From contig JACPJW010000002.1 in the NCBI GenBank assembly GCA_016187335.1, forward strand, positions 1 through 64,000: 64,000 bases of DNA. Reading direction: 5' to 3'. This stretch comes from Candidatus Aenigmatarchaeota archaeon. Lineage in GTDB: Archaea; Aenigmatarchaeota; Aenigmatarchaeia; GW2011-AR5. Under the pieces are notes generated by a model. That model did not search any database. It worked only from the letters and a program-made list of their open reading frames with translations, and was not told the DNA's origin. Below, piece after piece: positions 7,855 through 53,630 of this stretch (positions are counted from its first letter, which is position 1; each line of letters opens with the position of its first letter). Both the position numbers and the translations under genes were made by a program.

Positions 7855-7907
7855 AATCATCAACGGAATTGTATTTTCTTCGTGAGCTCTGAGAAGCTCT
7901 GTCCTTT

Positions 7908-7984
7908 CCTTGAAGACCAAAGGTCTTCGAGGTCTCGGATACCTTTGGTATCCGAAGATGATGAAACTTTTTGGAAAAGTTTCA
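7908..7984 (-). repeat. Three-hairpin repeat element, copy A (77 bp)
   Basis: It consists of three consecutive hairpins: 7912-7928 (GAAGACC aaa GGTCTTC), 7935-7955 (TCGGATACC ttt GGTATCCGA) and 7962-7984 (family 1 core). It aligns without gaps over 77 bp with the element at 15859-15935. Several differences are paired changes that keep stems intact. The stop codon of the L30 gene is the first triplet of the third hairpin on the minus strand. Confidence 0.8.
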
Positions 7985-10570: not shown

Positions 10571-10601
10571 CCTTTTGATGAAACTTTTTTGAAAAGTTTC
10601 A
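10571..10601 (-). repeat. Family 1 hairpin repeat
   Basis: On the minus strand TGAAACTTTTCAAAAAAGTT is followed by TCATCAAAAGG: a 9-bp stem with the ATCAAAAGG tail that defines the family. Its first triplet is the stop codon of the zinc-ribbon gene at 10599-10763. Confidence 0.75.
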
Positions 10602-15064: not shown

Positions 15065-15124
15065 TTTTTGATAGAACTTTTTGTTAAAAAGTTCTTTTTG
15101 ATAGAACTTTTTGTTAAAAAGTTC
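15065..15124 (-). repeat. Perfect tandem pair of family 1 hairpins (2 x 30 bp)
   Basis: Units 15065-15094 and 15095-15124 are identical. Each contains GAACTTTTT-GTT-AAAAAGTTC, a 9-bp stem. The S17 stop codon TAG starts on the minus strand at the edge of this array. The perfect identity suggests recent duplication. Confidence 0.85.
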
Positions 15125-15471
15125 TATGCAGTAACTTTTTCCACGACGACGAACCGCTTCGCTTTTGAAAGCGGCCGGCACTCGGCTATGGTAACGGTGT
15201 CGCCCTCCTTTGCGGCGATGCACTGCGGGTTATGGGCCGCTATGCGCGTGTTTTTCCTCTGGTACCTTTCGTACTTGGGAACGTATGTGTAGTAATTCCA
15301 CTCGACGATAGCGGTATTCAGCGCCTTTGAAGAGACGACTTTTCCGCTGAAAACCCGGCCGCGCACCTTCAGGTGGCCGTGCCACGGGCATTTCTCGCTG
15401 CCGCATGCTTCCTTCGGCGCTTCGGCAGCTATGCCGATGTTTTTCACTGCAGTTTTCTTTTTTCGTGCCAT
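15124..15471 (-). CDS. rps17: Ribosomal protein S17 (uS17)
   Basis: A 115-residue small-subunit protein. CPWHGHLKVRGRVFSGKVVS and RNTRIAAHNP..AKEGDTVTIAECRPLS are the archaeal S17 signature. The stop TAG is the first triplet of a family 1 hairpin pair. It follows the Rpp29 gene as in many archaea. Confidence 0.96.
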   Translation of the reverse strand: MARKKKTAVKNIGIAAEAPKEACGSEKCPWHGHLKVRGRVFSGKVVSSKALNTAIVEWNYYTYVPKYERYQRKNTRIAAHNPQCIAAKEGDTVTIAECRPLSKAKRFVVVEKVTA

Positions 15472-15490: not shown

Positions 15491-15531
15491 TTCTTTCCAT
15501 GCATGCTTTCTTTTCCAAAAAGAAAGGATGC
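15491..15531 (-). repeat. Family 2 hairpin repeat behind Rpp29
   Basis: The minus strand reads GCATCCTTTCTTTTTGG then AAAAGAAAGCATGCATGGAA. The stem GCAT-c-CTTTC pairs with GAAAG-c-ATGC, with one C.C mismatch. Compared with the tRNA intron copies the fourth pair changes from C:G to T:A, keeping the mismatch. It begins at the Rpp29 stop codon. Confidence 0.7.
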
Positions 15532-15812: not shown

Positions 15813-15858
15813 CAACTTCAATCTGCATCAACGCTTTAGTTTTCATTGACGGTCGTTT

Positions 15859-15935
15859 CCTTGAAGAGCAAAGCTCTTCGAGGTCCCGAAAAACTTCGTT
15901 TTTCGAGGATGATGAAACTTTTTTGAAAAGTTTCA
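15859..15935 (-). repeat. Three-hairpin repeat element, copy B (77 bp)
   Basis: Hairpins at 15863-15879 (GAAGAGC aaa GCTCTTC), 15887-15905 (CGAAAAAC..GTTTTTCG type) and 15913-15935 (family 1 core). It has the same length and spacing as the copy at 7908-7984. On the minus strand the aIF1 stop codon is the first triplet of the family 1 hairpin. Confidence 0.8.
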
Positions 15936-16479: not shown

Positions 16480-16508
16480 CAAACTTTTTAACAAAAAGTT
16501 TGATCAAA
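16480..16508 (+). repeat. Family 1 hairpin repeat, opposite orientation
   Basis: CCAAACTTTTTAACAAAAAG followed by TTTGATCAAAA on the plus strand: a 9-bp stem whose ATCAAAA tail points the other way from most copies. It lies between the S3 stop and the L29 start. Confidence 0.7.
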
Positions 16509-17956: not shown

Positions 17957-18010
17957 TTTGATTAAACTTTTTTTTAAAAATTTTTTGATTAAACTTTTCT
18001 GAAAAGTTTA
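17957..18010 (-). repeat. Two adjacent family 1 hairpins, one decayed
   Basis: The right copy, 17990-18010, reads TAAACTTTTCAGAAAAGTTT on the minus strand and begins with the S19 stop codon TAA. A left copy at about 17957-17986 keeps TTGATTAAACTTTTTT but has lost most of its second arm. Confidence 0.7.
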
Positions 18011-20355: not shown

Positions 20356-21168
20356 TCACCGTTCTTTTCCTTTTGATAAAACTTTTTTTGAAAAGTTGTC
20401 GAGTGCCGATTTTGTCATCACGACAAGGCGCCCTGCGTTTGCGCCCGGAGCGAGGTGCTCGGCATTTAATTCGTCAGCACTGACGGCGTCGACGCCCGGT
20501 ATGTTTGCAGCGGCTTTGAGCAGCGCGCATTTTTTCGCGGCAATGAGCAGCGGGCCTTTCTTCCTTTTGTATTTCCTGCCCCGCATCTTCCCCCGTCCTG
20601 CCCTCACCTTTTTCTCGGCGCAGCGCTCCAGTTCTTTTTCCAGGCCGAGCGAAGCCAGGATTTTTCTCGCTTCCTTTGCCTTGCTTACGTTCTCGAAGTC
20701 ATCGACAATAACCAAAGGGACATCGCCGGCATATTCGTGTCCTCTTGCCGCGACAAGATCTTTCATCGCTGCTGCCGACAGCGCGGAATGCAGCGCAAGC
20801 AGCTTTTCTTTCTTATTCACATCCTGGGCCCAGTTCTTCTCCGCTTTTGGCGGGTGAGCCCTTCTTCCCTTGACCGCCTGCGGAGAGAAGCGCCCGCGGA
20901 ACGCCATGTACCCCGCGCCCTTTCCGTGTATGCGCGGCAATCTTGACATCTCCTTGTTCATCATCGCGAACCTGTATTTCCTGCGGCCGTGGTAGTGCGC
21001 GCTTGTTCTTTTTCCCGCCAGCGGGTCGGTGCCGTACCTTTGCCTTTTTTTCGACTGCAATGACAGCACGACGCGCTTTATGACGTCCGGGCGGTATGCA
21101 GTTGCGAATACCTGCGGCAACTCTATTTCACCGACAGCTTTTCCGGACAAATCGTATAGTTTAGGCAT
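20356..21168 (-). CDS. rpl4: Ribosomal protein L4 (uL4)
   Basis: A 270-residue large-subunit protein. RVVLSLQSKKRQRYGTDPLA, then the extended tunnel loop RIHGKGAGYMAFRGRFSPQA, and VPLVIVDDFENVSKAKEARK. Start ATG 21168 after GTGATAATC. Its last 15 residues (DNFSKKVLSKGKER) are encoded by a family 1 hairpin repeat, so a repeat has been accommodated in the coding sequence. The stop overlaps the L23 ribosome-binding site. Confidence 0.96.
   Translation of the reverse strand: MPKLYDLSGKAVGEIELPQVFATAYRPDVIKRVVLSLQSKKRQRYGTDPLAGKRTSAHYHGRRKYRFAMMNKEMSRLPRIHGKGAGYMAFRGRFSPQAVKGRRAHPPKAEKNWAQDVNKKEKLLALHSALSAAAMKDLVAARGHEYAGDVPLVIVDDFENVSKAKEARKILASLGLEKELERCAEKKVRAGRGKMRGRKYKRKKGPLLIAAKKCALLKAAANIPGVDAVSADELNAEHLAPGANAGRLVVMTKSALDNFSKKVLSKGKER
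20371..20400 (-). repeat. Family 1 repeat inside the L4 coding sequence
   Basis: The minus strand reads AACTTTTCAAAAAAAGTTTT followed by ATCAAAAGG, in frame as NFSKKVLSKGK. One stem pair has drifted. A similar peptide is encoded by the copy at 25238-25265. Confidence 0.7.
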
Positions 21169-25901: not shown

Positions 25902-25932
25902 TTTTTGATCAAACTTTTTCCTAAAAAGTTTG
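25902..25932 (-). repeat. Family 1 hairpin behind tRNA-Ile
   Basis: The minus strand reads CAAACTTTTTAGGAAAAAGT then TTGATCAAAAAG, 12 bases after the tRNA-Ile 3' end. It may help terminate the tRNA transcript. Confidence 0.65.
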
Positions 25933-25971: not shown

Positions 25972-26003
25972 CCCTTTTGATTGGACTTTTTGGAAAAGTT
26001 CAA
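25972..26003 (-). repeat. Family 1 repeat forming the tRNA-Ile T-loop intron
   Basis: The minus strand reads TTGAACTTTTCCAAAAAGTC then CAATCAAAAGGG, hairpin plus tail as in other copies. In the tRNA, TGAACTTT also pairs with AAAGTTCA at the intron's far end, which could form the bulge-helix-bulge. Confidence 0.75.
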
Positions 26004-26062: not shown

Positions 26063-26161
26063 GTTTTCTTTCCGTGCATTCTTTTTCTTTCCGTGCATTC
26101 TTTTTCTTTCCGTGCATTCTTTTTCTTTCCGTGCACGCTTTCTTTTCTAAAGAAAGGGTGC
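26063..26161 (-). repeat. Family 2 hairpin plus 19-bp tandem array in the D-loop intron
   Basis: The minus strand opens with GCACCCTTTCTTTAGAAAAG then AAAGCGTGCACGGAAAG (family 2 hairpin). Four 19-bp units follow at plus-strand 26063-26081, 26082-26100, 26101-26119 and 26120-26138, each ending in CCGTGCAttc or CCGTGCAcgc. The array repeats the 3' tail of the hairpin. Confidence 0.85.
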
Positions 26162-53166: not shown

Positions 53167-53361
53167 ATGCCAAAACTGTCCAGGATCGACAAGCTTGTTC
53201 TGAAGGCAGGAAAGCAGAGGAAGAAAGCGGGAAGATTCTGTCCCGTCTGCAAGGGCACTGACGTTGTGCTTGACGCAAGGATGGAAATGATCTGGTATCG
53301 GTGCCGTAAATGCTCACACAGCGCCGCGTCGTTCCCGGAGAAAGCCGTTAATTTTGGTTAA
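53167..53361 (+). CDS. Zinc-ribbon protein behind L37e (64 aa)
   Basis: The ATG is two bases after the L37e stop. CPVC and CRKC (FCPVCKGTDVV; YRCRKCSHSA) form a zinc ribbon like that of TFS/TFIIS-type or small archaeal zinc proteins. The stop TAA is the first triplet of a family 1 hairpin. Function unknown. Confidence 0.75.
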   Translation: MPKLSRIDKLVLKAGKQRKKAGRFCPVCKGTDVVLDARMEMIWYRCRKCSHSAASFPEKAVNFG

Positions 53362-53379
53362 ACTTTTTGGAAAAGTTTA
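53359..53379 (+). repeat. Family 1 hairpin at a stop codon
   Basis: TAAACTTTTTGGAAAAGTTT plus A: a 9-bp stem whose first triplet ends the zinc-ribbon gene. A TATA-like TTTATAAG follows for the next gene. Confidence 0.75.
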
Positions 53380-53601: not shown

Positions 53602-53630
53602 TGCAACTTTTCAGAAAAGTTGCATCAAAA
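53602..53630 (+). repeat. Family 1 hairpin with tail
   Basis: TGCAACTTTTCAGAAAAGTT then GCATCAAAA on the plus strand: an 8-bp stem with the ATCAAAA tail, between the membrane protein and tRNA-Lys. Confidence 0.75.

Follow-up and report, generated by a model that had tools for sequence, protein, structure and literature searches.

Several kinds of short mobile palindrome have been described. Rickettsia palindromic elements (RPEs) are found in-frame in unrelated protein genes (PMC10969869). The mitochondrial hairpin elements of Allomyces and sponges consist of one to three hairpins, also in tandem, and lie in intergenic DNA, rRNA genes and protein genes without shifting the frame; they are patchily distributed in close relatives (PMC2800124). 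In the REP/BIME/REPIN systems with RAYT (Y1), two inverted hairpins are the moving unit, which is present in high copy and is mostly extragenic (PMC3116915). In the archaeon Caldiarchaeum, gain of tRNA introns has been proposed to be linked to mobile elements (PMC3293823). As for Aenigmatarchaeota or DPANN, no report of such elements was found in the open-access subset of the literature that was searched. Here we deal with a feature that occurs twice in a stretch of 64,000 nt, called the window hereafter, of an aenigmatarchaeal genome of 1.01 Mb (two contigs, 91% complete); in agreement with this placement, almost all of the nearest L14 loci come from Aenigmatarchaeota. It is probably a composite of mobile palindromic DNA, in which a double-hairpin unit (H12) lies together with a shorter hairpin unit (H3), sometimes with a mini-hairpin (H0) upstream (Table 1). 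It is to be noted that all genomes compared are MAGs, 56-93% complete and some of them fragmentary, that parts of the window's own genome are masked, and that genes were called by a simple hexamer caller. The analysis drew on stretches surrounding matches, on unbiased stretches and on others chosen for comparison.

An earlier note had taken the feature for one 77-bp element with three hairpins, repeated with compensatory changes. The two copies do align without gaps, with 85% identity over 84 nt (7901-7984 vs 15852-15935), and most of their differences are paired changes. Between copy 1 and copy 2, hairpin 1 changes from C:G to G:C as had been read, and hairpin 2 shows the three double changes already listed (G:C to A:T, T:A to A:T, C:G to A:T); one more double change, TCT/AGA to TCC/GGA, is found in this hairpin as well. 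On the gene strand the copies fold with −41.0 and −32.7 kcal/mol, and none of 200 shuffles folds as well. Thus the three-hairpin fold stands, but the single unit has to be given up, because hairpins 1 and 2 together, and hairpin 3, are each also found apart from the other, and the way in which one is nested in the other varies. Read on the gene strand, the third hairpin begins with the TGA stop codon of RpL30 or aIF1, also as described, and this overlap is a property of H3 alone. The consensus of H3, which is a shorter hairpin than H12 and often solitary, is TTTTGATnnAACTTTTnnnAAAAGTTnn, and elsewhere in the genome an H3 uninterrupted by H12 reads CCTTTTGAT. H0, whose general form is GnnCTCTGAGAAGnnC, can stand upstream of H12. 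When the window was searched against Rfam at the gathering score, one tRNA was the only match, and no family matched the element.

Orthologous junctions were compared with those of a congeneric genome, G001. The L30-L15 junction carries the same composite there, H0 included, with several paired differences. The aIF1-P29 junction of G001 is devoid of both H12 and H3 and has a different hairpin, and its P29-S17 junction has an H3 with H12 nested inside it, whereas the window carries a different hairpin at that junction. Even within one genus, then, such junctions gain and lose elements. Another sequence used below, L051, appears to belong to the same genome as G001, judging from aIF1 (88-89% identical) and from the junctions, which are the same.

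Table 1. Features of the H0, H12 and H3 families located in the window.
Feature	Position	Strand	Remarks
H0 mini-hairpin GAGCTCTGAGAAGCTC	7884..7899	+	conserved core CTCTGAGAAG, ends covary; G001 has GACCTCTGAGAAGGTC at the orthologous site and thus differs by a paired change
H12 copy 1	7908..7958	+	H1 7908-7932, H2 7933-7958; covariance model R1, 72.3 bits; in the L30-L15 intergenic gap, inserted into the H3 prefix at its T-run
H3 copy 1	7959..7984	+	hairpin 7962-7984; end supplies the RpL30 TGA (minus strand, 7982-7984)
Solitary H3	10574..10600	+	at gene stop codon; nn pairs 2/2
Two H3 in tandem (TTTTTGATAGAACTTTTTGTTAAAAAGTTCT)	15067..15125	+	end at S17 stop codon
H12 copy 2	15859..15909	+	flanked by the genes for aIF1 and RNase P p29 (Rnp1); covariance model R1, 71.8 bits; missing from the orthologous site in G001
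H3 copy 2	15910..15935	+	end supplies the aIF1 TGA (15933-15935)
H3	16480..16508	-	oriented against its gene, contrary to the usual bias
Degenerate H3	17964-17984		neighbour of the copy at 17984..18010
H3	17984..18010	+	overlaps stop codon
Degenerate H3	20372..20399	+	one of two end pairs broken
H3	25904..25932	+	directly downstream of tRNA 3' end; from pattern search and sequence reading
H3	25976..26002	+	in what looks like an intron in the T-loop of a tRNA gene on the minus strand; read from sequence, no tRNA model match
H3	53353..53379	+	overlaps gene end
H3	53603..53629	-	7 nt past stop codon

Other hairpins and repeats are found nearby. Between SecY and L15 (7237-7280) lies a different double-hairpin family, TACATGG-hairpin-CCTGTACAGG-hairpin-CCATGTA, with TA between and around the units, and relatives of it have copies in the genomes G004 and G013. 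At 26064-26139 a 19-bp tandem repeat, TTTTCTTTCCGTGCATTCT, is present in about four copies and is followed by a hairpin in which an internal mismatch is conserved. A further hairpin family, xxGC-G-CTTTTC..GAAAAG-G-GCxx, likewise conserves a mismatch inside the stem, and its copies are often followed by an A-rich TATA-like stretch; the sites of this family are 15501-15531 and 26133-26161 in the window, L151 10284 and L154 11131, as well as sites in the genome G008.

H12 is about 52 nt long, and its two hairpins form an inverted pair. At the stem bases there is a conserved wobble or a one-nucleotide bulge, which is on the 5' side in H1 and on the 3' side in H2. A covariance model made from 13 folded seed copies located H12 at about 47 distinct places in its own genome of ~1 Mb. 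Matches were obtained in 35 of the 59 relatives searched, with very uneven counts within one family, which range from a single row to about 90 when both strands are included; these row counts need roughly halving, because the inverted hairpin pair looks alike on either strand and both strands of one copy often score. About eight copies are clustered within 8 kb of the window's own genome (C2:76000-84000, L216). The seeds contain 39 double-change cells against 10±2.9 after shuffling. Among 150 matches, 708 double-change cells were counted against 238±21, with 94% of the cells paired, counts that are inflated by strand duplicates and by a model built from folded seeds. The scan and the count of covarying pairs that the earlier note had proposed thus gave paired double changes far above the shuffled controls, and unpaired substitutions as frequent as paired ones, which it had named as the refuting outcome, did not appear. 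Its conclusion that selection or copying through a structured intermediate is at work is thus supported in part: paired change holds at large scale, but the object is another one, namely two mobile elements, H12 beside H3.

What kind of process changes both arms? In the inner stems of H12, whole pairs are swapped between G:C and A:T, and G.U makes up about 1%. This scarcity of G.U together with the whole-pair changes suggests that the arms are changed jointly at the DNA level, and the conserved bulges and wobbles at the stem bases suggest that a folded single strand is recognized. Selection and copying are only partly separable in this way, the inner stems favouring DNA-level copying and the stem bases favouring shape recognition. 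In general, hairpins with stems of 9 or more are abundant in codirectional intergenic DNA, at 3.19/kb against 0.20 expected from a Markov control. When orthologous hairpins were compared between G008 and G013, 17 were usable, mostly chance stems in genes, and one showed a paired change.

G008 and G013 belong to one genus and are about 93% identical in the ribosomal cluster, and filled and empty sites can be compared between them. A 400-kb portion of G008 contains 36 single or clustered H12 sites, 11 of which were resolvable against G013; nine are net insertions in G008, and the other two are shared or of near-equal length. One coding sequence of G008 holds a 54-nt double hairpin in-frame, and the empty site in G013 reads AATTCAAC^ATACCAAG. 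A gene for a surface-type protein in G008 contains a 108-nt pair of double hairpins, again in-frame, which adds 36 residues and is a clean insertion with respect to G013. The same element sequence is also seen in-frame in other, unrelated genes in either orientation. In total, 11 of the 45 G008 copies lie within called coding sequences and all of them are free of stop codons. An average H12 has 4.2 of its 6 frames open, and therefore some coding tolerance is intrinsic to the element. Occurrence in-frame in unrelated ORFs, here checked against empty orthologues, is what RPEs show as well, but RPEs are about 150 bp long and bacterial, whereas H12 is an archaeal double hairpin of ~52 nt with freely covarying arms, and sequence homology to an RPE family would not be expected. 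Also like the mitochondrial elements, H12 keeps its hairpins by compensatory changes and differs in its insertions between close relatives; unlike them it resides in an archaeon, where BHB introns offer an extra niche, and the likeness is one of working, not of organelle origin.

Insertion of H12 is not restricted to protein genes. In the genome of the window, the D-loop of a tRNA gene is filled by H12 (GGACA[..]GAATG), where the empty counterpart in G001 (GGACA^GAATG) reads GGACAGAATG. By-eye reading places 15 of the 47 own-genome copies in or directly beside H3, and nesting within H3 recurs at three points, the T-run of the prefix, the left arm and the right arm; when H12 is taken out, H3 is restored. 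In G004, H12 is inserted at GGGATA^CGAC within another hairpin element, whose counterpart in L051 is uninterrupted. Target duplications are 0-2 bp and vary between clean sites, and no fixed target tetranucleotide was found in the flanks beyond a preference for T-runs, the left flanks being variable. H12 is found in both orientations relative to genes.

These sites bear on two further explanations. The first is that nothing moves at all, and that polymerase template switching creates and repairs hairpins mechanically in place. Nearly perfect Watson-Crick arms and paired change are what such a process would leave, but it is hard to reconcile with insertions of 54 and 108 nt that place a known family sequence precisely at new sites, with one element sequence in several unrelated genes, and with conserved bulges and wobbles, which repair would erase; we regard it as very unlikely. 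The second is that H12 and H3 are non-autonomous MITEs of a classical DDE transposase, which moved them in trans and has since been lost. The elements are small, palindromic and scattered, one site has a possible AT/AT duplication, and the related double-hairpin family between SecY and L15 carries TA between and around its units. On the other hand, the duplication at clean sites is inconstant, without the TA duplication of IS630-type MITEs, and the arms do not resemble conserved inverted terminal repeats, since their sequence shifts and their pairing stays. In addition, DDE_3 (PF13358) is absent from the window's own genome, G004, G008 and G013, and is missing in 9 of the 11 genomes tested (present in 2). 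A DDE origin seems unlikely to us.

The behavior of H3 is different in part. In a 336-kb sample of its own genome, 26 kb of which was masked, a pattern that ignored the end dinucleotides found 40 copies (~310 kb readable). The end dinucleotides (nn), which lie outside the search pattern and take many values, are fully paired in 35 of the 40. An alignment of 27 copies has 100% of its cells paired, with 19 double changes and one single-sided change. Within 30 nt, 14 copies are found at gene 3' ends and 2 at 5' ends, and one also lies directly after a 16S 3' end. Among 79 hairpin-to-stop distances, 19 are within 5 nt of the stop codon, with the peak at 0, and hairpin-bearing gaps are rarer among divergent gaps (13% vs 30%). 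H3 may sit at stop codons either for a function or by target preference. Beside one H3 (L154 8999-9025) stands a second copy, 16 nt long, of the beginning of the neighbouring tRNA gene (GCCGAAGTGGCTCAGT), and a similar partial tRNA duplicate adjoins H12 in the genome G025 (L137).

Such positions would be expected if the hairpins were regulatory or 3'-end RNA elements of the host, such as terminators or 3' stabilizers, with the paired changes coming from mRNA-level selection and ordinary RNA coevolution. The fixed orientation of H3 at stop codons, its excess at gene 3' ends, the distances peaking at 0 and the shortage in divergent gaps all speak for such elements. But both H12 and H3 are present within tRNA and 23S genes, and H12 also within coding sequences, all of them places where a terminator would do harm, and H12, with its scarce G.U in inner stems and its two gene orientations, is polymorphic by precise insertion. 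Furthermore, among the single mismatches of intergenic stems on the host sense strand six are A.C and one is G.U, which argues against selection on host mRNA structure, though the cases are few and three come from related H1 copies. Nothing points strongly to a role of H12 for the host, and we judge a host RNA element improbable as the general explanation. The reading of H3 in particular as a terminator was weakened by its copies inside rRNA and tRNA genes, and a C/D-box reading from TGATGA and CTGA motifs was dropped since the motif order is wrong.

H3 is also connected with introns. One copy lies in a 23S rRNA gene and folds as a predicted BHB intron, and in tRNA genes H3 or other hairpins occupy the T-loop, the D-loop or an anticodon intron, positions read by eye from the flanks with splicing predicted; ARAGORN missed those tRNAs that contain introns. 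In all cases read, H3 in the predicted BHB introns (23S, tRNA) is in sense orientation. A 16S rRNA match (L013 1079-2001) has about 190 and 109 extra bases at two places, which are probably introns. The 5S rRNA gene of G008 (L282 9255-9445) has a 74-nt insertion with a predicted BHB fold and that of G013 has none, so that the insertion is possibly a recent 5S rRNA intron. With archaeal BHB introns the elements may share their place, H3 and other hairpins lying inside predicted tRNA and rRNA introns, but no BHB was seen at the ends of H12 or of intergenic H3.

It might be imagined that the elements are relics of BHB introns which splicing endonuclease and ligase reinserted into RNA and which then returned to DNA. 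The predicted introns with H3, in sense orientation whenever read, and the predicted 5S intron polymorphic between G008 and G013 are consistent with such a cycle. Against it, no RVT_1 reverse transcriptase was detected in the window's own genome, H12 ends lack BHB, and H12 persists in coding sequences and in both orientations. We give this RNA route only a small chance.

What is established here is the presence of copies throughout the genome, paired substitutions, precise filled and empty sites in congeneric genomes, and nesting. The enzyme aside, we consider it likely that H12 and H3 are archaeal mobile palindromic elements; the orientation and stop-codon bias of H3, which simple movement does not explain, counts against this, and so do the lack of a fixed target and the searches for Y1, DDE_3, TnpB and RVT_1, which detected no partner in the own genome. 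H12 would spread in Aenigmatarchaeota by insertion into T-runs, often those of H3, into hairpin loops, intergenic DNA and a tRNA gene, and in-frame into coding sequences. We infer that the element may travel as a folded single DNA strand recognized by its shape, in which case the arms would change only in pairs. As the mover, an HUH/Y1-type enzyme acting in trans, or one that acted in the past, is ranked most likely, at a confidence that stays well below even. The next-ranked route, to which we give somewhat less weight, would be copying of the element by polymerase template switching at hairpins.

Comparison with Y1 systems shows both sides. As in REPINs, two inverted hairpins of H12 insert as one 54-nt unit, but no RAYT/Y1 gene was detected in the own genome, the arm sequence of H12 is not conserved, and about a quarter of the G008 copies are intragenic, not extragenic as in REPINs. 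In place of the GTAG/CGTC tag, the flanks, as read by eye, are CCTTG, CTGC and CTTC. The two-hairpin MITEs of IS200/IS605 resemble H12 in their two hairpins and in no or minimal duplication, and a Y1-bearing example is present in the relative G013, whereas H12 is unlike the G013 IS200 ends and has no fixed 5' target. Searches for Y1 (PF01797) found none in the own genome and detected it in 4 of the 13 genomes tested, G008 and G013 among them; TnpB (PF01385) was found in none of the 6 genomes tested, the own genome included. In G013 (L256, L286) there is a true IS200-type Y1 gene, the ends of which recur as a short two-hairpin MITE, and this MITE is polymorphic between G008 and G013. Thus, for a family other than H12, a Y1 route does seem to be in use among these archaea.

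It is conceivable, though we hold it rather doubtful, that these hairpins represent a class of archaeal elements which needs neither a resident transposase nor a resident reverse transcriptase of any known type in order to spread, only shape recognition or host replication, and which feeds new protein segments and new rRNA and tRNA introns in Aenigmatarchaeota. The mobile palindromes of this group are young, abundant and polymorphic in close relatives, within streamlined genomes of ~1 Mb, and therefore the very moment of insertion can be read. As the same hairpins lie within predicted introns of tRNA, 23S and 5S rRNA, the origin of archaeal introns becomes testable. If it is true that no transposase of any kind takes part, these elements would represent mobile DNA reduced to a minimum.
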